Source of the DNA: Phoenix dactylifera
Taxonomy: Eukaryota; Streptophyta; Magnoliopsida; Arecales; Arecaceae
Length of the DNA stretch: 64,000 bases
Assembly (NCBI RefSeq): GCF_009389715.1
Contig: NC_052401.1
Location: 1,538,843 to 1,602,842, forward strand
Direction: 5' to 3'
The notes beneath the pieces were generated by a model. It saw only the letters and a list, made by a program, of their open reading frames with translations. It searched no databases and was not told where the DNA came from. The translations under genes and the position numbers were made by a program. Positions 1,968 to 64,000 of the stretch are shown piece after piece (within the stretch, counting starts at the first letter, position 1; each line of letters starts with the position of its first letter).

Positions 1968-9940
<7,973 letters not shown>

Positions 9941-39300: not shown

Positions 39301-42300
39301 TGAAAAATTTAATAAATATCTTGAACATGGTTCACAACACCGGTTTCAGTACTCATATCGGTATTATGTTGGTATAGTGTTGGTAGAAGTTGGTTTGCGG
39401 TACCAAAACTTAATATTGCTTTGCTACCAGAGCGGTGCAACTGGTTACAATGAACCATGCTCTTAAACATACTTATTGGTAATGTTCTCAATATTATCAA
39501 AATTTCAATGTTGTTTTTTCATTTTGGTCAGAGAAAGTGGAAATTGTAAGCAATAATAATAATTTTGGTCAGAGGAGCAGAAGTTTAGGAAAAAAGGTGT
39601 TAAAAACACAAGCAAACACAGATCCTGCTATGAACTGATGGCATGTTATTTATGCCTTTAAATTCTAAGCGATTGCCAAAAGAATAGTTGTTGAAAACTC
39701 TAAATAGATGATACAATCTCCATGATAGTGAAACTGGTAAGGAAAATTAAAAAAGATTTATTGTAGTTAGAATGGCCCAATGATAATTGTTAGATTTGGG
39801 AGTTGGTGTGGGTGCAAAGAAGTGGATATCTTAAGTAAGGATGTACTTAGAAAGTGAGTGCAGGATTGAGTTGCCAATGATTTGTCTGAAGCAGGTACAT
39901 TTCGCATATAGAAGTTTCTTGCTACTAGGGTCCAACAGTCCTATGACTTAATTGCACCTATTGAGGTCAAAATGTCGGCATGAACATGTTAAATGAAGAT
40001 CTGAGGAGGCTCTAGTAAGGCAAGGCGCTTCAATCCATATTAAATGGTTTAGACAGAGAGACCTAAGCTAGCATGTATGGCAGCTATGAAGACAGATTTG
40101 AAAATGCTCCCACTATAACTGTAGGTAGCTCATAAATGATATTCATGTAGCTAAACCCAACTAGTTGATCCAGGCTTGATGGAAGTTATGGTTATCTAGA
40201 AAGCTTTTGTCGTGGAGAGAGAACAAATGAAAACTACCCTCCTAGTCACTATTTAATAGTTTAAAATAGAGCATGTTAATACAATCACCCTGACAATTGA
40301 TGAAGGATTGACAGCACCAAAAATTTTCCAGAAAAGATATTGAAGCATGAAGGTGCTTGGTGATTCCCATGTCAGGCATTTGGTAAATCATGTGAGCATC
40401 TAGTAAGCTAAGTTCATTTCCACGAAAAAGACAATGTCTTGTGAGACAGGTTTGACAAAGCAACAGTCAAAACAAGGTAATACAATTGTGCTTAATGGAG
40501 ATGCTGGAAAGATGGGTATAATTCACATGGAGAGTCATTGAATTTGGTATCTACTGCCTAGGAAGATGATATCCAGCATAAATACCATGCCCACTGTTGG
40601 AAAGTTGTGATGTATGACAGTCTAGATATTGGGGCCTATTTAGGTTGAGGATACAAGGGCTGTTACAATTGTTTGTTGGAATGTTAGATTTAAACCTGAA
40701 TTTTCGATAAAACTAAACTAGAAAGTTAATGTCTTTGAAGGAAAAACATAATGGGTGATTATTCTCCAACCCAGAATTTAGATTCTAGGTCTAGACTGTT
40801 TTCTAACAAGGTTTGTGTGATTAAACAATCAAAATCAACTTTGCTGGAATTTTCTTGTGAAAATCTGACCATAGGAAAAGAATAAAATCAAGAAAACAGA
40901 ATGATACCTAATGGCCTAAACACTAGCATGCAACCTACATCTCACACTCAGGGTTTGAAGGTCTCACACCTTTGCAGGATCACATCACTGGAGAACAAGA
41001 AGACAATGTTTAAATCATCATTTGTCATTAGTCAACCGCCATATTTATAGACTTCTAGGGCCGTTGGTTACATAAGAAAATGAACTAGAAAAGGAATTAA
41101 AAAATATATTTAACCTATGCCTCTCATCACCTAAGGGGATGGGTGGCCAGGATTTATTAAAGCACTGGCTGGTTTACTTTGTTTTCTTTTATATTCTTCT
41201 CATGAAAATGAAGAGGCTTTAAAAGGGAGACATGGGCTGGAAATATATGTTTCTTTTTATTCTTAGGACTCCTAAAGAAGGAATCTTAAGTTCTGGTCAC
41301 AGTCTTCTTTGATATTTTTTTCTTTGACTCAATATAGAAGTACACTCAATGTTGGACTCTTTTCCAAATGATGATTCTCCAACATGACCAAGTTTCACCT
41401 TAGAGTTCACATTTGATTTTCAAACTGTGCAGAACTCCTAATGAGATCCAGTTCTGTAGTGACACCTTTTGATGCTAAGATGCTCTGAACAATAACTGGC
41501 CCTTTTATCTTTATTTTCTCCCTTAATTTGATCTTCCTTTATTCCTCTTTCTTCTATTATTTATCTTGGCTGCTTTGCACATTTTAATTGAGAGAAATTG
41601 CTCCTGCATCAGTTTGTAGTAGCTCAATTATATACTAGATGGGGTCAAAACCGAATATATGCAAGAACATATCATGTTCTTATCCAATTCAGGGATATGC
41701 ATTGTAGATACTTGCATTGATGGTGCTATATGCTACTGTATCTTTAGCAATAAAAGTCAAATGTCCTGATATATGACTGATCTTTTTCTATGAGTACCTT
41801 TACAAAACAATCTAACTTCCTTGCTATTTTTCCCCAGTTATATCAATGAATTGATTGAATATATATTCCTCACGAATAAAGATAACAGAATCGGAGAGGC
41901 AGACTCTGATAGATTAACCAATGAAGCTATTCTTGCCCATGATAATAATGTTTCTGGAGGAAATACTCGTACTGCTCAACCTGAGTCAAGAACTGCAGCT
42001 TCTAGCCAATCAGGTGACTTGATAATGGCTAAAAGTGGTGTGGAAAAATCACTCGCTAGTTCTGAGCATGGTCATCTGAAAACATTACAGGAAAGTTCTG
42101 AGCATCATATACAGCCTTATGCTGCAGAATGGGCAATGATACTGGATGCTGCTACAAAAAGAAGATCTCAAGTCCTTGCCCCTGAGAATCTTGAAAACAT
42201 GTGGACAAAAGGAAGAAACTACAAAAAGAAGGCTGCCACTCTTATGAAGGCAGGAACTTCATTGGAGTCTCCGAGTGCTGTGCCAGGAAATGTAGATAGT

Positions 42301-45300
42301 ACTGTTCATGCAGGAAACACAGGGAAGGGATTGTTGACCAATATGAACGAAAGTACTATAAGTATAGATGATAAATATATGGTTCACCTAATGCAAGGAT
42401 CCAATAATAATAGCCGATCAAGTGTAGCACCAAACCATGAGCAGCATGTTTCTCAAGATCTGGTTAGCATGCAATCTAAAGAGGGGGGTCATTTTGGTGA
42501 TGGAAGTGATGAAAATGCCAGGAAAATTTTTGAAAGTAATAAAGATCAGCTAAAGCGATCTAGTAGCACGCCTGATATTGAAACAACATTAATGGGCAGA
42601 AGTGGTGAAAGTGAAACTACTGGTTTCAAGGAGAACTATAGTCAAAACTTTAGCAAGCATAAGCAAAAGCAAAGCTCTGAATTAGTTTCCAAGAATGAAG
42701 GATCCTTCTATGCTCCAAAGATAAGGTGCCGGGTGAGTATTCCATTCATTGATCTGTGTCAATTGTGCAGCTTCTATGGCTTCTTGCAGATGTTTTTGTT
42801 AATCTGTACGGTTGGCAATTGATCCTATATAAAAAAGTTTAGGTTATTTTTGGATGTTTTATTTTGCTTACCATATGACACATATAGTCCTTCAAAATAT
42901 TCATACTGTGATGGGTCTGTCATCTCTGTGCTTTATTTTCCGGTTTTTCATATACTAGTTATCTGGTCCTCCTTAACTAACCCCCACAATTTGCTTCTTA
43001 TTTATGCTTCAAAGCTCATTAAATATATTGCTTCTAGAGAGGGCTGGAAAGTTCTCTACAATCTTGTTCTCTCTTCTGCTTTCTAAGAAGTATATGCTAG
43101 CTAACTTTGACATCATCCAAGGTAATAATTTTGCCTTCTTTGTAGTATCATCTTGAGATCATTTGATATTACCATTAGCTCCGAGGACCGCCGAACCAGT
43201 ACTAAGACCCGTACCAGTACTAAGACCCGTACCCGTCGGTGACCGGTACGGTTTGGTATTGGTTCAGTACCAAACCGAAGCTGGTATGTGTAGGGCGTGC
43301 CGTAACCAGCATGCCCAATTTTATTTTATTTTTAACTTTTCAAGAATATTTAATTAGTAATCACTTTTTTGAAGTTTTTCAATGTTTTTAAGTCTAATTT
43401 GATTTTTTTTGGTGTTTTTTTGATATTTTTTGATGTTTTTATGGTCCTGGTTTAAACTAAATGATGTATTTTATTGTTTTAAAATAATGCCACAGTCAAC
43501 CCGATTCAAAATTGGATTGACTCGGAACCGGCCAAATCCAATAGGATTTTCGACCGGTAGGGGCTAGAACCGAATTGCAATACCGAATCAGGTCGGCTCG
43601 TTACTGCCTGAATCGGGCGATTCGGCCGGTTCGACAGACCCTGATTAGCTCTATATCAACTCAAGGGGATTGATGCAGGGAGGAGCAAATGACTACGTTT
43701 GGCCTTCTTTTCAAGTAGTAGGATGGCTTGTGCTTAAAATCTTAAAGCTGAATTCTAAATTTTGGTCACCTTGCATTTGCATTCCACCCCCCCTTCCCCT
43801 TCTCTATATGAATGTGTTATCTATTATGTAGTCTTTTGTGTCATCCAAATTTCATATCCATAAGTCACCGCCATAACCCTCGAAATGTTTTCTTCATATG
43901 CTGCGCCAATCTCTGAGTTCCCAATAGAGTTGCATAGACAGTACAGCTTCAGAAACGAATAACCCCACCCCCTTTCCTTCTTTCTTTGGTAGCTTTATCT
44001 AGCCATTAAGGTTATACCTCTTTTTAGACATTTAAATCATCAACTCTTCTTCTAGTCCAACAGTCGTTTGCTTTTATATAGATATGATATTATGGTTCAA
44101 ATGTGTGTTTGTTATATATGTGTGCATATATATAAACACACAATATATACAAGATTTGTAATACCGGAGCTGGCGTCTATGCCGGTAGGCTGGTGGTATG
44201 GTATGGTATGATATGCCCCATGCTGTGTTGTTCCGACGTGAACTGATAGGAAACTGGAAAGAGAGGGGGAGAGGGAGAAGGAGAGAGAGGAAGAGAGAGA
44301 GGGAGGAAGAGAGGGAGGGAGAGGAAGGGAGGGAGAGAGCAACAGAGAGAGAGAGAGGTGGAGGGAGGGGGAGGGGGAGGGGGAGAGGGAGAAGGAAAGA
44401 GAGGAAGAGAGAGAGGAAGAGAGAGAGGGAGGGAGAGGAAGGAAGGGAGGGAGGCGATGCCAAAATAGGGCTGAGGGAGGGCTTTTGAAGTCCACTTTCC
44501 TGCATGCATCGAAATAGGGGCAAAGCCCATGTTTCGAAAGGAAATAAGGGTTTCGACCCCTTTTTACATATATATATTTTTGAATTTTCTAAAGTGAAGT
44601 CGGCATTGGTTGCCGACTTCACTTATTTTTTCTCTCTTTTTTTGAAATTTTTTAAGTAACGTTGGCAAATTAAGTGAAGTCGGCAGTGCCTGTCGACTTC
44701 ACTAATTTTTTTTTTAAAAAAGGGCCAAAGCACCTGTTTCCTTTCGAAATAGGGGCTCTGTTCCGATGCATGGAGGTGAGAGGGTTTTGAAAGCTCTCTC
44801 TCCCTTCTTCCTTGGCTGTCTCCCTCTCTCTCTCCCTCTGTCTCTTTCTTTTCCTCTCTTTCATTCTTCCTCTTCCCCTCCTTTGCCTGTTTCTCAATTT
44901 GATGGCCGGAACCATCCCGATCGGCTGCTGGTACGGCTCGGTACACTTCGAACTAGGTTATTTGGGATGGTTCCACCATCCTTGTATATATTTTTAATGA
45001 GGCTTTATTTTTTCTATTGAATTTTATCTTATGCACATTACAATATGTCAGATACTGCTGTGCTTATCTAGTTACATATTTTTGCAAATGCAACCATCCT
45101 ACCGTTTAGTAGTTTAATAATTTAATCTCTCAATGCCTCATGATTAAAAGTGCAGCAAGTAAATAGGTGTGGTGACATTTCACTGTGAAGAACACCTTTG
45201 TTCTCTGTAAAGTACTTGCTTAACCATGACATGCTTTCTATGATATTTGTTACCAATTTGTTCCTGCTTGCAAAAGGAAGCATGATATGCACTCATATGG

Positions 45301-48300
45301 TGGAAATGATGGTCAAACTAGAAAATATTTTCTATAATCTTTCTACTTTTGTTCTCTTTGCCAAATTTTAACTTACATGTTCATTGCATTTAAAATGTTT
45401 GTGCAGGTTGTTGGAGCATATTTTGAAAAGCTTGGATCTAAATCTTTTGCAGTTTATTCAATCGCTGTAACTGATGCTGAGAACAAGACCTGGTTTGTGA
45501 AAAGAAGGCATGCTTTTACCTAGACATCCCTAAAGTCTTTAGATATATTTACATCCATTACTTTCAAAAAGAGGCGCTCTTCATATATATTGATGTTTGT
45601 TTATGTATTCTCTATTGTCTTTGCTGGCTGAAGTCTGTTAATTGTATAGGTGTTTTGAGACCTTGCTTATATTAAATTTCTCTTTATATATATGGTCTAC
45701 CTGATACCAACTCTTCACCCTTTTCATTGGTTGTGTTCTATATAGATTCTGTAAAGTAAGAAGGAAGGTTATTTATAGTTTTTTCTTAGCATATTGCTCC
45801 AAAACCTTTCATGTCAATAATGAGATTTTTTTATTAACAAGGGCTTCTCTTTATGAAATTGCACCATTCATGTATGTGTACTCATAAATCTTGTTCATAA
45901 CATTTTTTGAGAAAATATGTCAGTAAGACATATATGAATTGAATGTCTTGTTAATTTAAAGAAAATTCTTATATGAGATCCATTAAAAGCAGAAACATTA
46001 GTTGTCATGTGTTATATGCATTGACTGATTTCTTGTATCTTTCTATATCGATAATATTGACTATTGGATTGCAGATACCGAAATTTTGAACGGCTGCATC
46101 GGCATCTAAAGGATATACCTAATTATACATTGCATTTGCCCCCAAAGAGGTTTCTTTCGTCCAGTATCGATGATTATTTTGTGCACCAGCGATGCATTCT
46201 TCTCGACAAATATTTGCAAGTATGGTTTGACTCTCTAGTTTGCAACTTTTTGCTTGGTATGATATGCCAGCTTGACATGTTTCTAGTTCATCTGGACAGG
46301 ATCTTCTGTCAATTGCTAATGTTGCAGAGCAACATGAAGTATGGGACTTTTTAAGTGATACTTCAAAGGTATAAATTTTCTCAATACACTTTTAGACACT
46401 TTCAGATTCTCTGGGAAGTTGATCCCTTTTTGGTTGTTTTTTTTGAAGAATTACTCTTTCGGAAAATCAACCTCAGTGATGAAAACATTAGCAGGTACAT
46501 AGATCTCAAACTCTCTTAGTTCTGACAGCTTACAAAAGAGTTTGATTTCGTCTTCATTTTATCCAACTGCGATCAACTTTATTAATTTCTTCACTTCAAT
46601 TTTTTCATATGTTATGATGGAAGAGAGTTGGCTCTAGCAACAAAATATGAATTTTTTTCTGTAGTTTCTTTATCTTGTTTTTGCCCAGATGTCTTGTTCT
46701 AGTATTCTGTACAAAACATTCTTTAATGTTGTAATTCTTTGATGCTTATTTTGAATTTTTGATACTAACTACACTGTTTGGAGAATGTTCTATTTATTAT
46801 ATGAAAAATAATGATGTGTCATTGTTTGTCATTTTCATGCATCATAGCTAGATACAATAGCTTTATCCTGATAAATTGAGGCCAATTTATTTCATAATCT
46901 GCTGTTAAGCTGAGCTGCACATTAGTTGGGCATGACTGGAAGTTGTCATTCATCGTTCAAAAATCAAAGCAGACATAACTAGTAAGTAAGAGATTGGCTA
47001 AGTTGAAAAGTGAGATGTAACATTTACTGGATCGATTAAATAACTGCTGGCACTGAACTGTCAGAAAATTAGGATAGTTGAGTGGGTTTAGCTCACTAGA
47101 ATATCACTATAACATGTCGATCTACTGCTATGTTCTTATATGATGAATCAGTCAAGCCACTTTAGCTCTGTTGAATTTGAGAGTCCACCTATGCTATTGA
47201 TATTTGCAAAGAGACTCTCTTCAAATATTTACTTATTTTGGCTAATTTTGTTTGGAAACATCAGAGATGGATCTAGCAAATGATCACAAGCAGCTTAATG
47301 TGATCCGCATAGATAGTCCTTCCTTGTAAAAGAGTTTTGAGTGACAGCAGAACTCCTTTCATCTACTAGCTCTTAAACTGATCCTAACAAATTTCTCCTT
47401 CCTACATATATCATAGTTTGAGTCCTCAGTATCTACATTCTACAATTTGTTTTAGAGAATGATTTCTTATACTATCCTGCTAAAGTGCTAATGCAAAAAG
47501 ATGGATCTTGGGAGTGCTGCACTCTTTTGTCAATCACAAGGGCATTATGATGGTGCAATATCAGAGGATTTATAAACAATTTTGGCTGGTAGATTTTCCA
47601 AGAAGCAATCAAATGATGTAATATAAGTGCTGTGATTATGGTTTTAAGCAAGATCCACAATCTTGATATATAGGTTCAGTATGGTATGGTTGATACTATA
47701 CAGTATGTACCCCGTACTGAGACAACTCTTGACCTTTTTTTCTCTTTTTTTTAAAATCATGGTACTAGCCAAAACCGGGCGATATAGGTCAGTACTGAGT
47801 GGAATTGAGCAATTCTGCTCGGTTCAGATTGATTGGCATCGGTACAAATTGGTTCTCATCTCGAACCAGCAAATTGATCCGGTTCTGCACCGGTTCGGTA
47901 CGATATGCTTGGACTAGGCGCTTCATGTCGGTTTTTCAGTCTTTGATTTTAAGTATATTGTTGTAACGTATCATGAAGTACTTTCCTACAATGTCTCGCT
48001 AGTATGATGCCCAACGTTATCTGGTGGGGCATTGTATAAGTCAGTATTAATTGATTACCACTTTGTCTAAGACTTCTATCGTACAACTCTCACGCAAGCC
48101 TAATATACCAAACATCTTACTAACTTCTTTGTAAAGATTCATATTACAACAATTTTTTTTATATTTGCCAACATGCCTTTCATCCGAGGTCTGCAAAACT
48201 GGTATCGAGAACTGTACCAATATATCACCAGTTCAGTATGGTATGGTATACATTTTGTACTGAGACAAGCTTCCAATATTTTTTTCAAGGACTGCAAAAT

Positions 48301-51300
48301 TGACTCGAACCTCTGGTTCGGGGTGTACCGTATTGAATTGGTGCAAAAGGTCGGTTGCTGGTTTAGTACGAGAACCAGTGTGTACCGGTTCGTACTAGTT
48401 TGAACTGAGCAAAATCGCCCGATTTTAGCTCGGTTACCGGCTTGTCCTTCCTAGTTTTGGATGGTACCTTTGATAAGAAATGAGAAAAAAAGGGGTCAGA
48501 GGCTGTCTCGATATGGAGTATGTATTGTATCGACCGTATTATAGTGTACCGGTAATACATCGGTATGGTACTCGGTGCTAAGATTGTAAATCTTGTTTTT
48601 TTCTCACTCCTAACCGTGGTACCACTCGAAATCAGGTGGTATTCGCTCCTGCTTGGTTCGGGCCGGTCCGGTTCATATACCGAATCGAACCTCGATACTA
48701 TGCTAGTACTTTATAAATGCGCTACAGTGTAGTCAATATGGGATGCTATGGTTCGGTATATTTGGCCTTGCCTTCATTGTTGATCCATTGTGAGTTTAAG
48801 AGGGGATGTTGTGTTGTCATATTACATAATCCTCTTTTTTTTCTTCTCTCAAAATACTATGCAGATGTATAATTGGTCATGCACTATTCACATGTTATAG
48901 GTGAAAACCAACTGCATGACCAATTGTATTTATTGGGCTAATTTCCTGAGCAGTAAATTTCTTTATTCCTACCTTCCTAATATTTGCTCCTCGAGTTTAT
49001 TAATGATTAGTTGGATAATCTTGAAGTCTTTTGCATTGTCTCTAACCTAGATGTGAAGCAAATGGACATTTGGCTTAAAAAATCAGTCATCTCGATCAAC
49101 ACTAAATTGCTTATTTGGATTTTATTACTTGCATTAGCGCAATAACCTCTTCTTATGTTGGGGTAAGGCTGCGTACATTTGACCTCCCCATATCACACAA
49201 TGGAGGGAGCCTCATGCACCGGGCTGCCCCTTTTTAGGATTTTATTACTTGCGTCCTAAAGCATTATTCTTGTTTGGTTTAACAACTTGATTGAATATCC
49301 ATCTTGTGAGCATCAGTTTGGACCTGCTTCAAGTAAAATTCTTTAGTAATATTGCAATGAATTCTATTAGGGACAATTGTGTTTCCAAAGAGCTATATTC
49401 TCTTGGTTAGTGCCCAGGTAGTAGAGTAGATCCATGGCTTATTTGATAGGTATCCATTCATGCACATTTATTTTGAGAAATAATCTTGAAAGACTACCCA
49501 CAACTGCTTTACTCCACCAGGAATCCAAGTGAGATTTAATATTTTGGCTTTTTTTCATTAAAAAAAATCTTTTGGCTTTTACAGTTGCCTAGTTTTTCTC
49601 TGGAGTGACGGCTTCCTGCTGTTGTTGACATGTATAGAGTTGCACATGAGCATGCTTGCATGTATTCATACTTTAGTGGTCAGCAGATGCTGGGATCAAG
49701 AAAGCCACCACTACAGGATGGTGTTGTAGCTTTCTTATTTGCATGTTAAAGTAGATAAGTCTGATAAGCATCTTCCATGGAGGAACCCAGTAAGCAAGAA
49801 ATGGTGGTCTCCGATCATATCTTATGTTTACTGTCATGCTTCTGAGCCAGAAATATTTCTAAGTTCATTTGCTTACGTTTATTCTAGGCAAAATTTCATA
49901 TTGTCTGCTGTATGTTTCAGAAGCTGCCTGTCATGTTCCTATTTCTTATTTGACGAAATTTGGCAGTTTTTGTCTTTAATTGGATGGCACATCCTGTCTA
50001 ATTGTCTTGGTTGTAGTTTACTTAACTGGTTGGTTTCGTTTTGACAGTCAATGTGGATGATGCTGTGGATGATATAGTTCGTCAATTTAAAGGGGTTTCT
50101 GATGGTCTGCGGCGTGTTGTTGGCTCATCACCATCTCATGCAACTTCTCCCCCAAGAGCTGAAAAGAACATGGCATTACCATGGAATGAAGAAGTGACAA
50201 ATAAACTCTATCCAGGCTATAGTAATGTAGACACTTCACAAAGTTTGTCTGATGATGAAGCCCATGATGAAGACCGATCTTCTGCAGTAAACAACGGATG
50301 GCACTCAGACAACGAATTAAATTCCAAAGTTTTTCCACCTCGTGTTGTCAAGCGCATTGAAGAATCTTCAAATTTGGATTCTCAGAGAAGCCAACGGTCT
50401 GATAAATTTGACAGGCTTGCATTAAATGCCTCAAAAACTTCAGTAGCATCTGAGCTTTTTGAAGATCCGGTTGGAATGCCACCTGAGGTACCAGTAGCTT
50501 GCAATCTCTATTTTTGACAATATTATTTCTTTATTACAGTTTCTGATTTGTGTCCCTTGGCTTCTTATATAGACAATATTAATAATCCTTAAAATTACTC
50601 TTGTAAACCTGCTAATGTAATAATTAAATATTTGCTACTTGACCATTCAAGTGAAGGATTTGCTTGTTTTTATGATTTCTTATTTTGCAAGTCATCGATC
50701 GAAAGCAAATTCATCATATGGAATATTTATGTTTAAATTCAAATGCTTGAGTGATTTATGACAATTTTAACCATCCTTCCACATCCTTTGTCCTGGATTT
50801 GTTGGTACTTGGCAGAATTATGTTTATCTTTGGATGTACTATGCTTTTAGATAGTTGGATTGATGTTTGTGCATGCTATTCAAGAATAGTTAAAATCTTT
50901 CTCATTTCGTCTACCTAATGATATATTCAATGGTTCACCACTGCTCCTCACAATTTTTTTTTTTTTTAAATCAAGTGTTATTTTAATGTGCTATTCAGGG
51001 TCCTGGTCTCTGATTATATTCTTGGATTCTGATCACTTTGAACTCTTCCTTAACTAATTTGTAATTATGGAAAAGACCATATTTATCTAGTCTTAAATGA
51101 TTTCTGAGCATCCCATGGACCAGTTGCATAAAACGAGATCCAACAACTTTACTGTTGACAGAAGAGAGTGGCTTTCTATAGGACGATTATAGCAATGCCA
51201 TTTGGATAGTCTCATCTTTCAGTCAGAATCTCAGGAAGATAGACTTGCAATAATTCCTGGTATGCCTTTCTTAGTGGCATAACAATGTTTTTTTAAGGAG

Positions 51301-54300
51301 CCTAGTTCTGCTTGCTCCATGATGGATGAAACGTCTTTCATTCATAAAACAGCCACAAAGATGAGAATCAACATAAGCAATGCTCTTTTACATGGTTGAA
51401 ATATGAATTTGGATATCCTCGGCAGATAGCAGATTTGGTATTAACATTATGCTGATTTCAGAAATTAGAGAGGTGGATGAACAAGCTAAAGATGCTATCA
51501 CTAAAAAAACATGTTGTTGGACAGTTGGAGATAACAACTTCCCAGCAATTGTGGAGGATAAACTATGTTGAGTGATTTTATAAGTTATTCTTTTTTAATT
51601 TCCATGTTTTACTTTTTAGCTTTCTTTCTATCTTTGCTTTGTATTATACTCTCTCTTCCTTCAAGCAAGATCATCTCTGCTGATGGTTAAAAGGAGATAG
51701 TTTATTTTAATAATCAATTTTAGATCAATTTTAAAACTTTCTAATATTTGAACTTGATAGTATGGAAACAGTACTGTTACTGGCTAACTTTGAAACAAAC
51801 TGGCAAGGTATTCATACATATCTTCGACTTGCTTTTGATGTTCTATGATGACAAATGCTAATTTGAGGATTGTTTGATATTAATGACCAAACAATAGAAC
51901 TTTTATAGAATTTTATCCACTTGGTGTCGGAACAAATTTCAATATTTCAATGATTTTATGGATTTACTTATTCTATTTATTTTTATACCATGAAGATTTA
52001 GTAATTTTGACATTTTTCTTTATGCCTTCCTATGGCTATTTTGTAGTGGACACCACCAAATGTTAGTGTGCCATTGTTGAATCTAGTTGATAAGATATTC
52101 CAACTGAAACGGAGAGGTTGGCTGAGGTGCGTTATACATTGCATTTCTCTGTTTCATTTCTTCTAGTGAATGTCCTTAAATAACTTTTTGCAATTTGTTC
52201 TTGCATTCTACACCTTGACCATCATTGTTGTATTTGTCGTACTCTCAACTACTATATTTTGTAAGGGCAGCAGTTCAGTTTTTCAATATTGTCAGCATTA
52301 TCTTTGAGCAGATAGGATAAATTTGAAGTTTTATCATTTCAAACTGCTACAAAATGATTCACTTGGAGTTTCATTTCCTATTTCCTGCAGAAGACAGGTC
52401 TTTTGGATTTCAAAACAGATTTTGCAGTTAATTATGGAAGATGCAATTGATGATTGGATTCTAAGGCAGATTTCTTTCCTACGAAGGGATGATGTTATTG
52501 CACAAGGGATTCGGTGGGTTCAAGATGTAAGTAGAGAATTATATGTTTCTTCACCATGTTTGTCAATAGAGTTCATTTCAAGTAGCAGCGTTATCATACT
52601 TTAACAACACCCTTATCCAAGATTTGCCCTCTTGGTACCGGACCCGTACCAGTGCCATATTAGCATAGTATTGGTATAGTATGATATGAAATTTTTTTAG
52701 CGTACCGAATGTTGGTATCGTACCGAGTACCAATACCGAACCAGTACGGTGCGGTACGCCCCGTACGGCCTGGTACGGGCCGGTATGGCGTACCTTGCCT
52801 TTATCTATCCTAAGGCATATCTAAGCCCTTTGTTCTTGTCTCAAAAATAAAAGTTTCTAAAAATTGTGTTCGGCTTGGCGGCTCTCTAAAACACATTTCT
52901 ATTTTTAAATTAGATAAAGCTTGTTTTTAGTGAAGTAGAACATGCTTATGTGATACGTAAATCTTTGATGTACTTGATTCCTATTTTTATATCTTATCTT
53001 TTTTTTTTAGTTTAAATGCAATTATCAAGGTTTCAAATACTGGTAGGATGGTGGGGGATATAGGATGAGCCTTGGCACAACAATAAAGATGCTCCATTCT
53101 GACTTGGAAGTCATGATTTGGAAACATGGAAACGGCCTCTCCGCACATGGGATTAAGGCTGTGTACATCGACCCTCTCTAGATTTTGCAATGGAAGGAGC
53201 CTCAAGTATTGAGCTGCCCTTTTTTTGGGATGGCAGAGCTTCCCACCATCCCGAGTTTTGTGATGGGATGAGTCGAAAAATGGGCTGGAAAGGGATGAGT
53301 AGGGTTGAAAACGGGTTGGATATTACCTGACTGAATCCATTTTTGGCCAAATCTATTTCTGCATCCAGTTCATATCAGATTTGGATAGAAATCCTTGTAA
53401 CTAATCAGACTCAGATATGGATTCGGATATATGCTTACAATTTTGCTAGATATCAGATATGGGTATGGATATTAAGGGGTTTTTTTTCCGAATTCGGATT
53501 CGGATATTTGGTTAGAAAAGTTCACAAGCATCTATAATAGGGAAAAAAAATTTATATACACCTATACAAGGGATTGACCTGGGACCTTTTATTTTGAACC
53601 ATGATGGCTTTAACTTCTAGTATATAATTATGGTCTAATATTCTTATTCAAAACTTGTTCGCATTATAAAATATGGTCATTTCAAATATATAATGGTATT
53701 TCATATTTTAATAATTAATTATTTCATAAAAATCCAGTCCTCTTCCTTTTGACAAAAAATAAAAAAATGAATAACTTCATTTCATTCTTTATAATATTTT
53801 GAAAATATTTTGTTTAAAATATTTAAAAATATCAATAATTTTGAGATATTCCTGTCTTCGTATATATTTTTTAAAGTTTTTTTAAAAAAGACAATTCGTG
53901 ATTCTTTTTATTCATGTTGCAATTAAAAAGTAATAATGGTATTTAATATTGAAAGCTTTTATTACTTTATATTATGTATCTTATTTAAATAGTATTGATA
54001 ATGATCCAACTTGGTGGTCAAATTGTTCTCTATGTATGTTTATTGATTATGTCTTAGACCAGCACATGGTGATGGTGCATTTCTTGCAAGCTTGATAGTG
54101 GATCTCAACATCTGGTTTATATTCAAATAATATCCAACTTATATACGTATCCGGATAGAGAAAACATAGATATAACTAATATCCAACTTGTGTCGATTTC
54201 TATTTAAAATAAATGTGGATATGCTTAACATCTGATTCGTATCCATAACTGTTTAGAAAAAAAATATGCATTCTAGTTTTGATATCTATTTAATAACCGT

Positions 54301-56454
54301 ATTTGTATCCGTGTTTATTAAAAAAATATGGATACAAATATGGATGTATTAATATCTGGTCTATATTTGATCCATTTTCAGCCCTAGAGATGGGACATCC
54401 ACTATCCTGAGTATAGGTATAGGGACATCCAATTTCATGGGAAAACAGGATAGCCCTGTTGCATAGTATTCAAAAGCCTGACAATTATATTTATGCATTA
54501 AGGGGTCTTGTTGCAATATACGTGAGGCTATGCTAAATAAGTTGCACATAACATTTTCCCCTTGATTTGTGTTCATGAAGGAATTGAATGCATCTAATCA
54601 TTCACCAATAGGGTGGCCATTGCTTGAAACAAGGGCACCACTTACGTAAAAACCTATTGGCTGACTATTGCTATTACTTCATTAACTTGTCACTAGTTGA
54701 GGATTTGTCTGACTTATGAACCAAGTGACTAAAAGTTAGCATGTTTTTGCTCATTATATTTCCCACTTCTCTAATTCTTGTAATAGGTGTGCTTAGTTTT
54801 AGTGATTTTACTAACACATGATTTTGAGTTAGTGCATGGCAAATCTTATGTATTAGTAGATACATTAGTTGTGTCATGTTAACATTTTTGTAATTTTTTA
54901 TGATTTGTGTTTCCGTAGATAAAAATAAAGAAAAAGTCATCCTTGTCAGCATTATTGTTGTTGATTTCCATTAGGGTTGAAAACAGTTTGGATAAAATCC
55001 TACCGCATCCGTTTTCCTATTCAATTTGTTTCGGATTCAGGTAAAAAGTCTGATATCTGATCATATCCGGATCTGAGCTCGGATATCTGCTTATAAATCT
55101 TGCTGGATCTGGATTCGGATTTTATGATTTTGGGGATTCGGATCTTGATTAAAAAACTCTAAAAAAAAACTGTAAATCCTAGGATTCGGACCAGTCTTCT
55201 TTCAATTAAATGACGGGCACTCAACTACCAAGCTGCAACGTCTATCTATTCTATAAAGTTGGTTTATTTTATTTATTCTATCTATTCTAAATATTTCATG
55301 TTTTAATTCTTATTTTTTATAAAACAAATTCTTTTCTCTTTGATAAAAAATAAAAAATATCATTTATGATATTTTCAATAATTTATTGCTAAAAAGATTT
55401 AAAAATGCTAATAACTTCTTTGTATTCTTGCATTTTTATATATTGTTTCTTACAAGCTCTCTAAAAATAGATAATTCATGATTATTTTTTATTTATGCTA
55501 TAATTAAAGAGTAATGATAGTATTTGATGCCAAAAATGTTTTTATATTATATGTTTAATTTTAAATAATTTTTGTTTTTAATATTTTAATACAAATCCGG
55601 CCAAATCAATGACCTGCACTCTCAACTAGGTTGGTCTCTGTGTAGGTGCAATAATTATTCCTTGAATATTTAGTTACCTATGTGTCATGTACAATCTGCA
55701 TAACAAATTACGTTCCTGTCCTTTATGATTATATAGTTAATATTAGTTTTCATTATTGAATTCTGCTAAAAATCAAATTTATATCCGAATAATATCCGAC
55801 TTGTATCCATATTTAGATAGAAAAATATTTTGATATAACTAATATAGGATTCATATCCATATGCGTTTAAAGCAAATATGGATATTAATTTTGTTATCCA
55901 TTTAATATCCATATCCATATTCGTATTTCCCCAAAAAATATGGATATGAATAATGATATACTAGTATCCTATCTGTTTCCAGCCATAATGTCCACTGATT
56001 TTTTTTTCTCTGCCTTTCTTTAATGTACTTTATCATATCATTTTGAGTAATTCAAATCAGTTTTATATAACTTTCTTTAGTTGTGCCTTCTTTCAGAATT
56101 AAAAAAGTCTGAAACTTGCATAAGTACTTATTGGTAAACCTTCAAGAGTGAATTATTGAAAGAAACATATAGGTTTTTATATCATCTACATATTTCATTA
56201 TATCTTTTGTAAATAATGAATTGTTCTAATTTTTAAATATAATTGCTTTTAATCTAAGCAGATTCTGTGGCCTAATGGTACATTCTTTTTAAAGTTGGAG
56301 AGAAGTCAAAGGAATATGGACGACAGTCATTTTAGTCAGCAACCAACTCAAAATACCAGTCAGATATATGGTAATAAGGTGACCAGACCAAGCTCTTTTG
56401 AGCTCCAGCTTGAGGCAGCTCGTAGAGCAAGTGATGTCAAGAAAATGATACTTG
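36301..56454 (+). CDS. Membrane-anchored sorting nexin (PXA-PX-Nexin_C), 13 exons in window, 3' end outside
   Basis: Exons: 36301-36400, 38336-38738, 38838-39015, 39099-39238, 41838-42732, 45407-45507, 46075-46219, 46300-46368, 46449-46494, 50048-50487, 52047-52126, 52391-52526, 56262-56454. They code for 975 aa in frame, and the last ends mid-codon at a GT donor. Two N-terminal hydrophobic segments (about 17-33 and 40-57) precede a PXA domain (about 95-280). A Ser/Asn-rich linker, mostly exon 5 (274-572), leads to the PX domain (about 573-690) with WFVKRRYRNFERLHRHL and LPPKRF. Nexin_C starts near residue 842 (PPNVSVPLLNLVDKIFQLKRRGWLR). PX domains bind phosphoinositides; animal SNX13/14 relatives tether endosomes, ER or lipid droplets. 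Plant function is inferred. Intron 6 is GC-AG. Most of Nexin_C lies beyond the window. Confidence 0.92.
37031..37072 (+). repeat. G-rich tract in sorting nexin intron 1
   Basis: Two runs of 8-10 G separated by AGGGAAGGA, with flanking GGAAGGAGAA and GAGAGAGA, lie on the coding strand of intron 1. The tract could fold as a G-quadruplex in DNA or pre-mRNA. It is low-complexity and may be assembly-sensitive. Confidence 0.75.
39326..39459. mobile_element. Short CAAGGTCC-family MITE in sorting nexin intron 4
   Basis: The ends are CATGGTTCACAACACC and, inverted, CATGGTTCATTGTAACC. The flanking 8-mers ATCTTGAA and CTCTTAAA agree at 6 of 8 positions. The interior contains GGTATTATGTTGGTATAG and GGTACC-like words decayed mainly by C-to-T and G-to-A changes. 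Confidence 0.65.
43182..43643. mobile_element. CAAGGTCC-family element in sorting nexin intron 5
   Basis: The TSD ATTAGCTC (8 bp) is perfect at 43174-43181 and 43644-43651. The ends are CGAGGACCGCCGAACC and, inverted, CAGGGTCTGTCGAACC. The body has repeated CCGTACCAGTACTAAGACC and GGTACGGTTTGGTATTGG words around a T-rich centre. No coding capacity. Confidence 0.85.
44150..44984. mobile_element. 835-bp foldback member of the CAAGGTCC family in sorting nexin intron 5
   Basis: The two halves are imperfect inverted copies: a GA-rich left arm (about 44256-44455) faces a CT-rich right arm (about 44790-44900). Words such as GCATCGAAATAGGGGC and TTTCGAAAGGAAA recur inverted. The ends are CAAGATTTGTAATACC and, inverted, CAAGGATGGTGGAACC; flanking 8-mers AATATATA and TATATATT agree at 6 of 8. 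Near the centre sit two hairpins: 44592-44624 with a perfect 14-bp stem (AAGTGAAGTCGGCA) and 44672-44703 with nearly the same stem. Frames over the GA/CT arms are artefacts. Confidence 0.85.
47649..47911. mobile_element. CAAGGTCC-family copy (decayed) in sorting nexin intron 9
   Basis: The left end resembles CAAGATCCACAATC and the inverted right end is CAAGCATATCGTACC. The interior contains GGTTCAGTATGGTATGG, GTACCCCGTACTGAGACA and CACCGGTTCGGTACG. No convincing TSD; limits are approximate. Confidence 0.6.
48185..48595. mobile_element. CAAGGTCC-family copy in sorting nexin intron 9, related material continuing to about 48780
   Basis: The left end is CGAGGTCTGCAAAACTGG and the inverted right end is CAAGATTTACAATC. 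The interior shares GTTCAGTATGGTATGGTA and GTACTGAGACAAGCTT with the 47.6-kb copy, plus GTACCGGTTCGTACTAG. Further GGTACC- and GGTTCGGGCCGG-type sequence follows at 48615-48780 and may be a second copy. TSD not convincing. Confidence 0.6.
49158..49235 (+). mobile_element. Truncated Au-SINE (3' part) in sorting nexin intron 9
   Basis: It matches the 3' region of the Au-SINE family: GGGTAAGGCTGCGTACA, GACCTCCCCA, GGGAGCCTCATGCACCGGGC, ending in CTGCCCCTTTTT. The tRNA-related 5' part is absent. Confidence 0.8.
52618..52797. mobile_element. CAAGGTCC-family MITE, 180 bp, in sorting nexin intron 12
   Basis: The ends are CAAGATTTGCC and, inverted, CAAGGTACGCCATACC. Flanking 8-mers CCCTTATC (52610-52617) and CCTTTATC (52798-52805) differ by one transition. 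The body alternates GTACCG and CGGTAC words and is strongly self-complementary. Confidence 0.8.
53061..53227 (+). mobile_element. Au-SINE, near full length, in sorting nexin intron 12
   Basis: The 5' tRNA-like part includes GAGCCTTGGCACAACAATAA (A box region) and GGAAGTCATGATTTGGAAAC (B box region). The body has AACGGCCTCT and the 3' part has AAGGCTGTGTACATCGACCC, GGAGCCTCAAGTATTGAGC and a T-rich end. This is the canonical Au-SINE order. Many CpG positions have decayed. Confidence 0.85.
53300..54386. mobile_element. hAT-like non-autonomous element, 1,087 bp, in sorting nexin intron 12
   Basis: The ends are TAGGGTTGAAAACGG and, inverted, TAGGGCTGAAAATGG. Flanking 8-mers GGGATGAG (53292-53299) and GAGATGGG (54387-54394) agree at 6 of 8, with both differences being transitions. 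The interior is AT-rich with GGATTCGGATAT repeats and no ORF. It shares its terminal sequence with the elements at 54972 and 31576. Confidence 0.82.
54972..55987. mobile_element. Second hAT-like element of the same family, 1,016 bp
   Basis: The ends are TAGGGTTGAAAACAG and, inverted, TATGGCTGGAAACAG. Flanking 8-mers ATTTCCAT (54964-54971) and ATGTCCAC (55988-55995) agree at 6 of 8. Internal GGATTCGG and CATATCCGGATC words match the copy 1.7 kb upstream. No transposase. Confidence 0.8.
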
Positions 56455-58209
56455 GTGAGACAGCTTTCATTTACGGATTCTGAATGTTGGTTAGTGTGCT
56501 TTCTCCATCAGTTTCAGTGTTTCTCTGTTAGCACATAATAAGCATCACATATTTTCTGATTTGACCTATCTGCATGACCCTAACAGTTTTTAGGCAATGA
56601 TCCTGTTCCTGTCATTGCATTCATTGTGTAAGCATATGGAACCTACTTTGCACATATAACTAATGAAAAGCTGAAAAAGCCAACAAAAAAAAAAAACTGT
56701 GATCTAGGCATTTATCTTGCAGTGATACTAGCCATGAGTTACTTGGTTTCCAATACCTACTGCCAAGTTAGTCTTTATTTCCATCCATGTTTTGAATGGA
56801 CAGAACCACAATATGAAACAGAGAAACTCTTGAAGATGCTATTGTAGGAATACAACATTAAGGATCTGTTTGTTTTCCTGCAATTCAATTACAGGTTGTA
56901 ATCCTTGCTTGCAATTGGAATTGCAGTTGCAGAAAGGGGCTTTGTTTGGTTATTTATAATTGAAATGCACCTGCGATGACAATTTAATTATAGTTGTTTA
57001 GTTGTTTGCTAATGAAAGAGATATGGGTACCCTATACTTGAGCTGGTAAGGTTACCCCTTGAAGCAGTAAACTGTTCATTTTTCTATTATAATTTATTTA
57101 TTATATTGTTTTCATAATTATAGTAGAAATATAACATTGTTATTATATTATTATTGGATTAGTCTAAGAATAATTACTGTATTAATTATATCAATAAAAA
57201 TTACTCTGATATTATAATAATTAGATATTTTGTAATCATACAAATATATATTTGTAATGTGCATTATTAATAACTAATAATTATTATATAATATTCATCA
57301 TCATCATTATTATAGCATTATGTATAGATTATAATAAGAATCATTATTATATAGTAATAAAAATAACAATAATACTTTAATTATAATAATAATAATAAAC
57401 TATGTATGATTCTGGAGGATCTCCAGACTCAATGTGGATTATTTTGGCTACTAATGGTAGTGCTAGATAGGGTCTAGGGGCAAGATCCGCTACATCGAAA
57501 AACCGAGTCACAAGCTAAACTTTCGGAGGCTATAATTAGGTTATATGATGCCCGATTGAGATTTTTTTTATAAATCGGGCAATTTTTTGAGATTTGTGAC
57601 GTGAGGCCCTGCCCTTTAGGGGACAAGGCTCCTATAGCGATCTTGCCCAAATTTTATTATTTGAGATCTGAAATAAAATTTTATTATTTTAGGATAAGAC
57701 TTCGACCGGGCATATCTTTCAATCCAAGAAGAATTAAACGAAGGGACAGAAGGTCGAGTTGATAGAAGTCAAGATCTACCTTCTGAAGAATTTTAGCTTT
57801 TTGAGTTTATTTTTACTAATATGTCTATTTTAGAAAAGAGAGTTCTATTAAAATTAGGAAAAAGAATCTGATCCGAATTGTGCAAAGTGGACCTTAGCAT
57901 TATAAATAGAAGTTATGTACCTTGGTTTTAAATTAATCAATAAAAGAAAAGGGGATTTAAGCTCTACTTTCACAATTTTTTCATCTTTTACTTTTTTTAA
58001 AAAGAAATTTGAGTTGAACGGGTTGAAGAAAATTTGTGGGGGTGTTAGTTTATGGACCAGACATGCGAGCAATACAAGCAATCAGAAAAAAAGCTATTCG
58101 TGCTTCAAATACATCAAGGGATAAAGGCGAGTATAACTACTAGTTCTTTCTTGATGGATGATGAGATGAAGGGACGTCTGACACAACTAGAGAAGAAGAT
58201 TGTCCAACT

Positions 58210-58549
58210 CATGGAATGCCGTACCGGCCCGTACCGGTCCGGCCGTGGACCGGTACCGGAACCGGAACGGATAAAAAATCGGTATTTTCCGGTTTTTTAT
58301 CCGAACCGGCCGGTACGGAGCCCGTACCGGCCGGTACCGGCCTCGTACCGGTGCGAATCGGCCGGTTCGCACCGGTACGATTTTTTTTTTTTTTTTTAGA
58401 ACCACAGCGCCACGCGCTGTGGTTTTTGAAACCACCGCGTACCGGCTGGTACGGGACCGGTACCAGCCGGTACGTACCGGACCGGACCGGTACCGTACCG
58501 GTCCGGCCGGCCACCGGTACGCCGACCGGTACCGGTACGGCGGACCTTG
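58210..58549. mobile_element. CAAGGTCC-family GTACCGG-palindrome element nested in gag
   Basis: The TSD GTCCAACT (8 bp) is at 58202-58209 and 58550-58557; the duplication can also be read as 11 bp, because CAT follows both copies. The ends are CATGGAATGCCGTACC and, inverted, CAAGGTCCGCCGTACC. The body is almost entirely overlapping GTACCGG, CCGGTACC and CGGTACGG words, with a T-run at 58382-58397. It is the least decayed copy in the window. Confidence 0.88.
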
Positions 58550-59377
58550 GTCCAACTCATTGAGATTGTCTCTAGATTGGCGATACCTTCGCTACAAACA
58601 GTAGCAACTCTTGTTGCAAAGCTGTCTTCTGTGTCTGGAGATGATGCACCATCTAGCGAGGAGGATGAGCACCCTACATGTATGCAAAATCTCTCTATTC
58701 AACCCTTTAAAGTTGAAGCTAAAATCGAGAACCCTATATACGACGGGACTATCTATGCAGAGAAGCTAGATAAATGGTTGGACCAGTTAGAGAGCGACTT
58801 TACTATCTATGGTAGTGGATACTCTAGTATCTAGAAGATAGCTTTTGCCCATCTCAAACTTTCTAGCCATGCTCTTATCTGGTGGAATTCATACATGAGG
58901 AACAACGATGTTACCAATCTGACATGGAGCAAATTCAAAGGCCTAATCAAGAAGCAGTTCTACCTAATTGGCCACAAGGAGGATCGATGGATCAAGTGAC
59001 AGTACCTATGGCAGAAGTATGATTAATCCGTCTAGGGCTACAACACTGAGTTTCACAAGCAAGCAATTCTACTTGAAATCTCCATAGACAATCATGCAGT
59101 TTTCATGAAGTACATCGGAGGTCTCCATGAAAATATTTGAAAGGAGTTGAAGCTCTTCAAAGTTGAAGACATTAGCGAAGTTAGCGTGAAGGACATGGGG
59201 ATCAAGGAGAAGAATCTAAGGCAAGAAGGGCGACAAATTCAAAAAGGTTAGTAGAAAATCAAGCCAAAAGGGGGAGCAAGGCAAGAAGAAAGCCAACAGA
59301 ACTCAGAAAAATTATTATGATCATTATAACCTCCACGAATACACCAAGGACAAGTGTTGGAAGCTTCACCCCGAATT

Positions 59378-59923
59378 GCAGTTGAAGAGGAAAAAGTTGA
59401 AGGATGATGATTCCAAGAAGAAAAGGAGGATAGTTCTCAATGCTGGAAAGGTTGAGTTGCCCGAATCAATCAAACAGACTTTAAACTAAGCTTGATGGCA
59501 AGTAAACTCGAGAGAGCAATTGAGACAGATCTAGAGGCATGAGAGAAACTCTTCTGCTTGAAGATCTAGATGAAGTAGAGCATCATCGATGCTATTGTAG
59601 ATCCTGAAAGCCAGAAAAACCTCATCTCTGAAAATCTGGTTCAGAAGCTCGGGCAGCTGAAGAGGAAGAAGTCGAAGGATGATGATTCCAAGAAGAAAAG
59701 GAAGGTAGTTCTCAATGCTGGAAAGGTTGAGCTGCCCGAGTTGATCAAGTAGACTTTAAACTAAGCTTGATGGCAAGTAAACTCGAGAGACAATTGAGAC
59801 AGACCTAGAGGCATGAAAGACTCTTCTGCTTGAAGATCTAGATGAAGTAGAGCATCATCGAGGCTATTGTAGATCCTGAAAGCCAGAAGAACCTCATCTC
59901 TAAAAATCTGGTTCAGAAGCTAG
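59378..59923 (+). repeat. Tandem duplication of about 275 bp inside gag-pol
   Basis: Units start at 59378 and 59653 with GCAG(T/C)TGAAGAGGAA. Both contain GATGATGATTCCAAGAAGAA, TCAATGCTGGAAAGGTTGAG, GCTTGATGGCAAGTAAACTC and CTATTGTAGATCCTGAAAGC. The copies are very similar. Confidence 0.9.
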
Positions 59924-60722
59924 GGTTGCAGACCAACCCTCATCCACATCTTTATCCTCTCGACTGGATTCAAAAAGATGTTGAGTTGAAGATTACCAAG
60001 CAGTGTACCTTCAAGTTCGTCATAACTGAGAGATATATTGATGTGGTAACTTGTGAAGTTGTTTCTTTGGATGTTTGTCAGGTTATTAGGAGCTCGTACC
60101 CTTAGGATTGAGATGTAGTCTTCTACCGGCAACTAAGGAAGTATCTGTTCGTGAAGGATGGAAAATAGTTCATGATCAACGCCTCCAAAACACAAGAAAA
60201 CGTCGACCTTGTGATTGCTGTCTAGGCAAAGCAACCTGTTAATGCTTGCAAGAGGTTTGTGTGGCTGATGACTCGAGAAGCTGATGCTGCACAAGGGAGG
60301 TTGAGCCCTTTGATACAAGACTTGAATCCAAGTCAAAAAACTGAGATTAGCCAATCGTTGAATAAGTTTCTAGACTTGTTCAAGGAGGTAAATGAGCTTC
60401 CACCCAAAAGAATAATTAAGCACGAGTTCAACTATTCATTATTGCACCTTTGCCCAACTTGGGGCTCTATTGTAACTCAATGATGGAGAATGAAGAGATC
60501 AATAAGCAGGTCACAGAGCTACTCGACTAAGGCGTGATCGAGTCTCCTCGACAAGATGGTGGACAAAGGATGTGCTTCAATTATTGTGCCTTAAACAAGA
60601 TCACCATCAAAAATAGGTACCCTCTACCCTAAATTGATGATCTATTAGACCATCTCAAGCCTGCATATTACTTCACCAAGTTGGATTTGAAATCTGGGTT
60701 CGTGAGGAAGACACGTGAAAGA

Positions 60723-60922
60723 TGACCTTCAAGATGAGGCAGGGTTTGTTCAAGTAGCTGGTCCAACTATTCAGTTTACGCAATGCCTCTGCCACCTTCA
60801 TGAGGTTGATGAATGAGACATTGTGACCTTCAAGATGAGGCAGGGTTTGTTCAAGTGGCTGGTCCAACTATTCAGTTTACGCAATGCCTCTGCCACCTTC
60901 ATGAGGTTGATTAAATTGGCCT
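60723..60922 (+). repeat. Tandem duplication of 101 bp inside the RT region
   Basis: Units start at 60723 and 60824 with TGACCTTCAAGATGAGGCAG and run through CAATGCCTCTGCCACCTTCA. They are almost identical; one carries TAG where the other has TGG. Confidence 0.92.
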
Positions 60923-63466
60923 AGACGCAAGATGGTGACCGAAGTCAGGAGCTTCATGTGTGCATGCCAGTACGTTAGGAAATTTATCATGCACTTCTCA
61001 GTAATTGCAGCACCCCTACACGGTTTGACGAAAGCCAACCAAAATTTGAATGGTCGAAGAAGCTTGAAGATACCTTTCAGCTTCTAAAGAAGATCTGCGA
61101 AATACCTATCCTAGCATTGCCTAATCTGCAAAGACCCTTCGAGATCGAGGCCGATGCATCAAGGTATGCACTGGGAGCAGTTCTCATGCAAGATGGAAAA
61201 TCAATAGCGTATCACTCGGAGATGTTTTAGGGATCATAGCTAAATTATTCGATACACGACAAAGAGCTGTATGCGCTACATCAAGCCGTGAAGCATTGGC
61301 GGTTATATTTGTTGGGCAAAGAAACAATTGTGCATACAAATACAAGCCACTTCAGTTTCTCCATACCCAGTCCAAGTTGCAACAAGCTCGACACATGAAG
61401 TGGATGTTTTATTTCCGGCAATTCAACTTGGTGATCAAATGTAAGAAGGGATACAAACAAATTAGCTGATCTATTGTTCCGGCCTCCAACAACAGTGGTC
61501 TCCAGTATATTGGTTGCAATATAGATTCGGCCACTCTGTTACAAAGATCTCGATGCAACGGATTCAGACTTTCAAGAAGAGTTAGAGAAATTGACAAAAG
61601 GCGTGCTAACAGAATTCACTTTGAAAGAGGGACTACTGTATGGGGAACAAGTTGTGCCCCTCAAGTCGCTGATAGAGTACATTGGATTTGAGAGACACAC
61701 TTCAAAGGTTGCTGGGCACTTCACAGTGAAGAATGTTGAACTTAAAAAGTTACATATATTGGTCGAAGATGCCGCAAGATGTGGCCCAATTTATTAAGAG
61801 TTGTGTACTATGCAGCACATCGAAGCTCTTTAATAGGAAGCTGGGACTTTATATGCCACTACCAGTACCTAGCAGACTTTGGAAGAGCATCTTGATGAAT
61901 TTCTCGGGAGGTTTACCAAGGGCAAGATGCAGCCATAACTACTTGTCTGTGGTGGTTGATCGGTTTAGTAAGATGGTATGCCTGATTTCTTGCATGAAAA
62001 TGGTGATTGGAGAAGAAGCCGTTCGTTTGTTCTTTCAGTGGCTATGGAAAAATTTTTAGTTAAACTTCCATAATTTCAAATCGAGATAGTCGTTGTTCGA
62101 GTAATTTTTGGAGATCTTCATGGGGGATGATGGATACTAAGTTGAAGTAGAGCACTTCCTTTTACTCATAGACAGATGGACAAACTGAGGTTGTAAATTA
62201 TACTATGTTGCATCTTTTTTGGGACTATAATTCTAAGCATCTAAAGACTTGCAAAGTGTATCAGAAGATTGAGGCGTAGTTGTAGAGATTTTAGCAACTT
62301 CACCAAGATCGGCATGATAATCATTGCACGAAGCGCAAATTCCACGAGGGGAAGCTAGTCTGGCTCCACCTTGGGAAAGACAAGCTAAAAGGTGAAGGGA
62401 TAAAACTAAAAACAATTCGATATGGTCCTGCAAAATTTTGAAGAAGATAGGGAAGAATGCCTTCCAGCTTGACTTACCACCATACATGGAGATGTACTCA
62501 GTAGTAGTCAGTGCTGAGAATTTGGAGTTGTTGGAACCTTCCATGTTAGAGGAAGACCAAGGCCAAGAACTAGTGCTGCCAATTGTGGGTGGCCTGTGGG
62601 TGTAGCAAGAAAAACCACTGGAAGAGGACTGTGTTGTTAAGAGGAACGTCACAAAAACTAGGTGTGAGAGCATCGAGTCTTTTCGCATGGTTGATAAGGT
62701 CAGTTTTCGAGAAAAGCTGGGTGGTTCAACCGCGAGATGGGGGAGCAAACATTTTTCTATCTTTAGTTCCCCCTAAATCTCCTATAGGGGGAGCTCTGAT
62801 CTAGGAGGATCCCTAGATTTGGTGTGGACCACTCTGGCCACTATGGGTAGGGTTGGACAATGTCCATGAGCAAGATCCGTCACAATAGAAAGTCGAGTCG
62901 TAAGCAAAACTTCTGGAAGTCATAACTTAGTTATACGAAGTTCGATTGAGATGATGTTTTTTTTAAAAAAATTGGGCAACTTTTCGAGATCTAGACAAAA
63001 AGCTACGCCCTTAAGGAGGTAGCTCCCTTAGGGGTTTGGCCAAAATTCCATTGTTTGGGGTCTGAAATAAGTTGGTCAAATCGAAAGTTTTCTTTTTGGA
63101 TAAGACTTTGATTGAGCATATCTCTTATTTTAAGAAGAATCAAATGGAGCGACAAAAGGCAGAGTTGATGTAGAAGTCGATATCTACCTTCTAAAGAATT
63201 TTAGCTGTTTCTAGTTTATTTCTACTAGTCATTTATTTTAGAAAAGAAAGTATTATTAGAACTAGGAAGAAGAATCTGATCTGAGTTATGCAAGGTTGGA
63301 CCTCAGCATTATAAATAGAAGATGTGTACCTCGATTTTAAATCAATCAATAAAAAAAGGGACTTGAGCCCTACTTTTACAATTTTTTCATCTTCTAATTT
63401 TCTCATGAGAGATTCGAGTTGAGCGGGTTGAAGAAAATCTTCTTTCTTCCTGATCAGAGCAATGTA

Positions 63467-64000
63467 CCTGGCTACTTTCCAGCTCCTAGTTTACTTTCCA
63501 ATTGCAAGAAATCTTGTAATTGGAAACCAATTTTGGCTGCAGATCTAATTACAAGTTCTGTGCATCTTTTGCAGTTAAACTGCAGCCTACAGTTACAATT
63601 GCAGGCATCCAAACACTTGTTTTGCGCGCTTGCAATTCAATTGTAGCTAACTGCAGCGTGTCAGTCGCAAGCAAACAGAGCCTCTGACATAATGAGTGCT
63701 AAAGCTATTTTTAGTCAGGCATTATCATGGTCCCTTTACTTTTGACTAATTCTGGACCTGTTATTGCAGTGCCTGCATTTCTTTCACACTATGGATGCTT
63801 GGAGCATTCAACATATACTGTGTAGGTTGCTGCATCAAATGCATAATATTTGTAGTCTTGGGGACATATTTAACCTCATGGCGCAAAATTAATTAGATTT
63901 GTTTAAAAATGTGAATGCTGAAATTTATTGTTTGGTGGTTTTTAACTTTTAAGCTGGGGCAATGAAAAGTACTACTTAATGCATCTTTTTAGAAAAATAT
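63467..64000 (+). other. Sorting nexin intron 13, right flank of the gypsy element
   Basis: This is a continuation of the last intron. No exon matching the expected continuation of Nexin_C was found up to the window edge. 63470-63683 may be the right arm of the interrupted MITE-like element. Confidence 0.5.

Follow-up and report, generated by a model that had tools for sequence, protein, structure and literature searches.

Eight very probable hAT-type, Ds-like MITEs within one plant sorting nexin gene

Eight pieces of DNA within one sorting nexin gene are very probably non-autonomous hAT-type DNA transposons that make up a Ds-like group of MITEs. They lie in a window of 64,000 nucleotides, the whole stretch of DNA that was analysed, which has a GC content of 0.378 and, judged by its genes and introns, is regarded as nuclear DNA of a plant. 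The elements have common ends and are flanked by 8-bp target-site duplications (TSDs); one is situated within another element and one within a retrotransposon. Because these are short inverted-repeat elements with 8-bp TSDs, a hAT-type mobiliser is suggested. The common ends, the 8-bp TSDs and a hAT-type mobiliser had been proposed in a preliminary description, and this part of its interpretation stands; its assignment of all copies to one family with a preference for introns is not borne out here. All seven copies that it listed are present, with paired ends and flanking 8-bp duplications, and the copy at 48185 contains a second element, giving a count of eight. The elements range from 134 to 835 bp (the outer element of the nested pair is 276 bp without the inner one), and in their inverted ends and TSDs they are MITEs. 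Among stop-to-stop frames of at least 60 aa, those overlapping the elements reach up to 182 aa and look like repeat read-through.

36301-56454, plus strand: host gene, sorting nexin; exons 1-13; PXA, PX and part of Nexin_C (64 of 110 positions) by Pfam
39326-39459, no strand assigned: e1, 134 bp, intron 4; TSD ATCTTGAA/CTCTTAAA, 6/8
43182-43643, no strand assigned: e2, 462 bp, intron 5; perfect TSD ATTAGCTC, 8/8
44150-44984, no strand assigned: e3, 835 bp, intron 5; TSD AATATATA/TATATATT, 6/8, low complexity
47649-47945, plus strand: e4, 297 bp, intron 9; TSD GTTTTAAG/ATTTTAAG, 7/8; homologue of e5b
48185-48770 (48185-48285 and 48596-48770), plus strand: e5a, outer element, intron 9; TSD CTTTCATC/CCTTCATT, 6/8
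48286-48595, minus strand: e5b, inner element, 310 bp, in the T-run of e5a; flanks ATTTTTTT/TTTTTTTC, 6/8, low complexity
52618-52797, no strand assigned: e6, 180 bp, intron 12; TSD CCCTTATC/CCTTTATC, 7/8
58210-58549, no strand assigned: e7, 340 bp, inside the retrotransposon; perfect TSD GTCCAACT, 8/8
57407-63438, plus strand: degenerate LTR retrotransposon, probably Gypsy-type, intron 13; LTRs 57407-58033 and 62797-63438; carries e7

The 18-bp ends common to the elements are CAAGGTCTGCnnTACCGG. When aligned, the 16 ends gave a common consensus, CAAGGTCTGCAATACCGG, as expected from the preliminary description, with little information beyond position 18. C1 is present in 16 of 16 ends, A2 in 14 and G5 in 12. 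Compared with an 18-mer consensus from which its own element was left out, each end matches at 8-15 positions (mean 11.6), and 12 of the 16 ends match at 10 or more; 18-mers of the window have on average 4.3 matches, and 0.38% of them reach 10 when set against the full consensus. The ends of hAT elements follow an A2/G5 pattern, with which the present ends agree.

The window was searched for paired inverted ends flanked by similar 8-mers, the end pairs being located with the consensus of the preliminary description itself. At a score of 13, the 103 real TSD-bearing pairs were not above the range of 10 simulations (86-120); weak pairs are therefore meaningless, and stricter thresholds were used. 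When a summed score of 18 or higher was required together with a TSD of 6/8 or better, the window yielded six pairs, whereas 100 simulated windows averaged 0.21 and never exceeded 2. At a score of at least 16 there were 11 real pairs (simulated mean 3.0, maximum 8), eight of them the described elements and the other three at 2173, 33866 and 37317. The elements e4 (16.8) and e5b (16.3) fall under the strict threshold of 18, and their support comes from their TSDs and their mutual alignment. That no copies occur elsewhere in the window, as previously noted, is borne out in that no further end pair scoring at least 16 also carries GTACCGG-type words, although a decayed copy like e3 could escape a check by word density: the highest word coverage of any 200-bp stretch outside the elements is 0.115, whereas seven elements have 0.13-0.51 and e3 has 0.05. 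Spots of GTACGG near 20.5 kb, beside a tRNA-Ile, and near 22.2 kb were rejected as copies because they have no end pair scoring at least 16; pairs with 6/8 flanks exist in both regions at the noise-level score of 13.

The TSDs had been graded as perfect or nearly so for three copies and partial for two; for the seven copies the identities are now 8/8 in two, 7/8 in two and 6/8 in three. Summed 8-mer identity over the eight elements is 54/64, against 16.8 ± 3.6 (maximum 31) in a control of 20,000 flank shifts, but this sum is partly selected, because the boundaries were initially picked with a TSD of at least 6/8. Without the two elements that have low-complexity flanks, e3 and e5b, the sum is 42/48 (control mean 12.6, maximum 26). 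In a fairer test of length, all 108 end pairs scoring at least 18 were taken with their flanks ignored, and flank identity of at least 75% was then counted: six pairs reached it at a length of 8 (two of them perfect), four, two and one at lengths of 4, 5 and 6, and none at 7, 9, 10, 11 or 12. The six 8-bp pairs are those at 39326, 43182, 44150, 48185, 52618 and 58210. Across the eight elements the paired TSDs differ at ten positions, by six transitions and four transversions. One transversion is an A/C in 39326; the other three are A/T and fall in the flanks of low complexity at 44150 and 48286.

In the host gene, exon 1 and the short exon 9 were read by eye and eleven exons were joined for the domain search, in which a frame break between two of the joined exons fits a missing short exon. 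The Pfam scan in the window covered eight sequences, two from the sorting nexin and six pieces of the retrotransposon, and no hAT transposase came to light. Intron 13 of the gene extends beyond the end of the window. The earlier placement of copies in introns 4, 5, 9, 12 and 13 fits this exon map, with the element at 58210 lying in the retrotransposon within intron 13. All seven non-nested insertions lie within the 27.7 kb of the gene; under even placement the chance of this is about 0.433^7 = 0.003, a pattern noticed post hoc in a single window. Gene flanks are favoured over introns according to an excerpt of a survey that covered Rosaceae, Brassicaceae and Poaceae (PMC12550479). Clustering in one gene thus holds for this window, but a preference for introns does not follow, as there is one gene noticed post hoc, one element is in a retrotransposon and one is nested. 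The exon 6 donor (45507-45508), AAG|GCATGC, makes a GC-AG intron, and the joined frame runs on into the PX domain.

The retrotransposon that carries e7 is of Gypsy type, as suggested by its domain order; two of its six pieces match Pfam, one RNase H and one an integrase zinc-binding domain. Its LTRs share 481 identical positions and differ by 104 transitions and 34 transversions (K2P 0.277). The retrotransposon is old, and e7 within it must have come later. When the flanks of e7 are joined with one TSD, 36 codons are open in one frame and stops occur in the two others. Support from this open junction for an empty site is modest: both flanks are open on their own, and the 348 bases of e7 plus its TSD are divisible by three, which leaves one chance in three that the flanks share a frame. 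The putative gag piece to the right of e7 (58550-58831), named from its position, matched no Pfam family. Duplicated stretches were seen by eye in the retrotransposon near 59.4-59.9 and 60.7-60.9 kb. Its GGATCTGTTTGTTT-like and inverse GCAAACAGAGCC flanks look alike by eye, and the possibility that it had split an older element with inverted repeats (56860-63690) was considered but rejected because only 16 bases aligned.

GTACCGG-type words are dense in e6 and e7 (coverage 0.51 and 0.46), moderate in five other elements (0.13-0.24) and sparse in e3 (0.05), against 0.013 in the window outside the elements. Coverage in the outer 100 bp and in the interior is 0.28 and 0.02 in e2, 0.20 and 0.00 in e3, 0.27 and 0.11 in e5a, 0.26 and 0.19 in e5b, 0.51 and 0.41 in e7, and 0.14 and 0.22 in e4. 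Confinement of the words to the outer parts, as transposase-binding repeats would show, is seen only in the two longest elements, e2 and e3. The bodies had been described as densely self-complementary; this density is found in e6 and e7 and strong self-complementarity in e7 and e3, but elsewhere the words are moderate or sparse and self-complementarity is weaker. The GC content of e7 is 0.62 and its CpG observed/expected ratio is 1.57. Single-change variants of the words in e1-e6 comprise 36 transitions and 46 transversions, where shuffles give 3.4 and 6.2. Of these changes, 34 are C>T or G>A and two are T>C or A>G, and the 26 C/G swaps show two alternative words, GTACGG and GTACCG. The proposed decay by transitions is therefore a mild excess only among the word variants, but is clear in the pair of elements at 47649 and 48286 (59:22).

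The bodies of this pair are homologous. When copy 48185 is read on its reverse strand, its local alignment with e4 scores 68 (shuffles 10.5, z 51.5) and spans base 25 of 47649 through its last base. In a global alignment, 47649 and 48286-48595 match with both ends included, 201 of 282 aligned bases being identical, with 43 gap columns, 59 transitions and 22 transversions. From this end-to-end alignment it is apparent that copy 48185 consists of an outer element and an inner one in its central T-run. With e5b excised, e5a aligns to e4 across the junction (score 25, in a pair without a shuffle control). No end-to-end body alignment was found beyond e4 and e5b; the others have their ends, words and some blocks in common, in the manner of Ds elements, and the idea of a single MITE family is not upheld. 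This may mean that several unrelated hAT MITE families share a transposase, with the words as binding sites kept in each, a refinement of the hAT reading to which we give a little less than an even chance. It would account for the restriction of end-to-end alignment to one pair and for several pairs at shuffle level (e.g., e1 with e7, 9 versus 8.9). Against it, scores exceed those of 40 shuffles for e1 with e6 (z 9.2) and e6 with e7 (z 7.2) on the same strand and for e2 with e6 on the opposite strand (z 9.1), although repeated words may inflate such scores, and e5a has a block in common with e4.

Two further alternatives depart from a hAT origin. The P and Merlin types also give 8-bp duplications, so that TSD length alone is non-discriminating, and Galileo is an element of foldback form. 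An excerpt of one source places Galileo in the P superfamily (PMC4168063). The A2/G5 pattern of the present ends nevertheless fits hAT, and an origin from one of these other superfamilies seems very unlikely. Even less credible is that the pieces are immobile, GC-rich palindromic or repeated words having expanded in place within introns. Autocorrelation of the words at lags of 5, 10, 11 and 21, as for repeated words, and the folding of e7 as a chain of hairpins are what such expansion would give; it is contradicted by the common ends, by the 8-bp TSDs, for which the flank-blind length test also speaks, by one copy lying in the T-run of another, and by the open junction at e7.

For hAT-type elements, the closest described parallel would be maize Ac/Ds, the type hAT system. 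An excerpt of one source describes Ac/Ds elements as having common ends and 8-bp TSDs but heterogeneous bodies, with a transposase that binds subterminal hexamers (PMC3260210). Maize Ds1 and the Ds-like element Ds-l4 appear there as likewise short, with 8-bp TSDs and divergent bodies, sharing little but the ends and some subterminal words (PMC3260210). The likeness drawn here is one of anatomy; the word type is TACCGG in the present elements and AAACGG in Ac/Ds as excerpted there (PMC3260210). The Ac/Ds group proper is marked by 11-bp ends together with the AAACGG hexamers. Other short non-autonomous hAT elements, likened here by their description in excerpts, are nDart1, dTok and nDaiZ of rice and BniHAT-1 and BniHAT-2 of Brassica nigra (PMC12550479, PMC12595863, PMC7385995). 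A search of the open-access literature with the element words gave nothing relevant by title among the matches listed, which cannot show that the family is unnamed. Musa hAT families of Menzel et al. 2014 reportedly have ends that possibly match those of the present elements.

By analogy with Ac/Ds, the words are candidate transposase binding sites. The 18-bp ends and nearby GTACCGG-type words would be recognised by a transposase supplied from another place in the genome, which would excise the element and insert it into staggered cuts, the fill-in of which would leave the 8-bp duplications. It is conceivable, though rather doubtful, that the GTACCGG vocabulary consists of amplified transposase-binding half-sites, TACCGG (the inner half of the end) having been copied inward at about half- and full-turn spacing, as in the lags of 5, 10-11 and 21, with e7 and e6 nearly all sites. 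If so, such short word-packed elements would be the strongest competitors for a shared transposase, and their CpG-rich words would be prime targets of methylation and decay fastest once silenced. If the word array is a transposase-binding array, the elements would allow the number of sites to be tested against the copy success of non-autonomous elements. At the scale of the window, the elements present a case of hAT-type hitch-hikers at differing states of decay in one gene, one of them nested. The find is otherwise an ordinary one, since one survey, in an excerpt, describes hAT MITEs as prevalent across nearly all the plants that it covered (PMC12550479).

Some minor observations concern single regions of the window. 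Element e3 (44150-44984) forms a long, imperfect foldback whose arms are GA-rich and whose inner hairpin recurs as AGTGAAGTCGGCA; its transcription along with the intron could yield a long hairpin RNA. Intron 12 contains, at 53300-56000, two mutually repeating blocks about 1.6 kb apart (repeat families D4, D6 and D10). By eye, the reading frames at 2000-9950 resemble those of a gene for a plastid UMP kinase, and 22300-22900 looks like the start of a gene for an ATXR5/6-like PHD protein.
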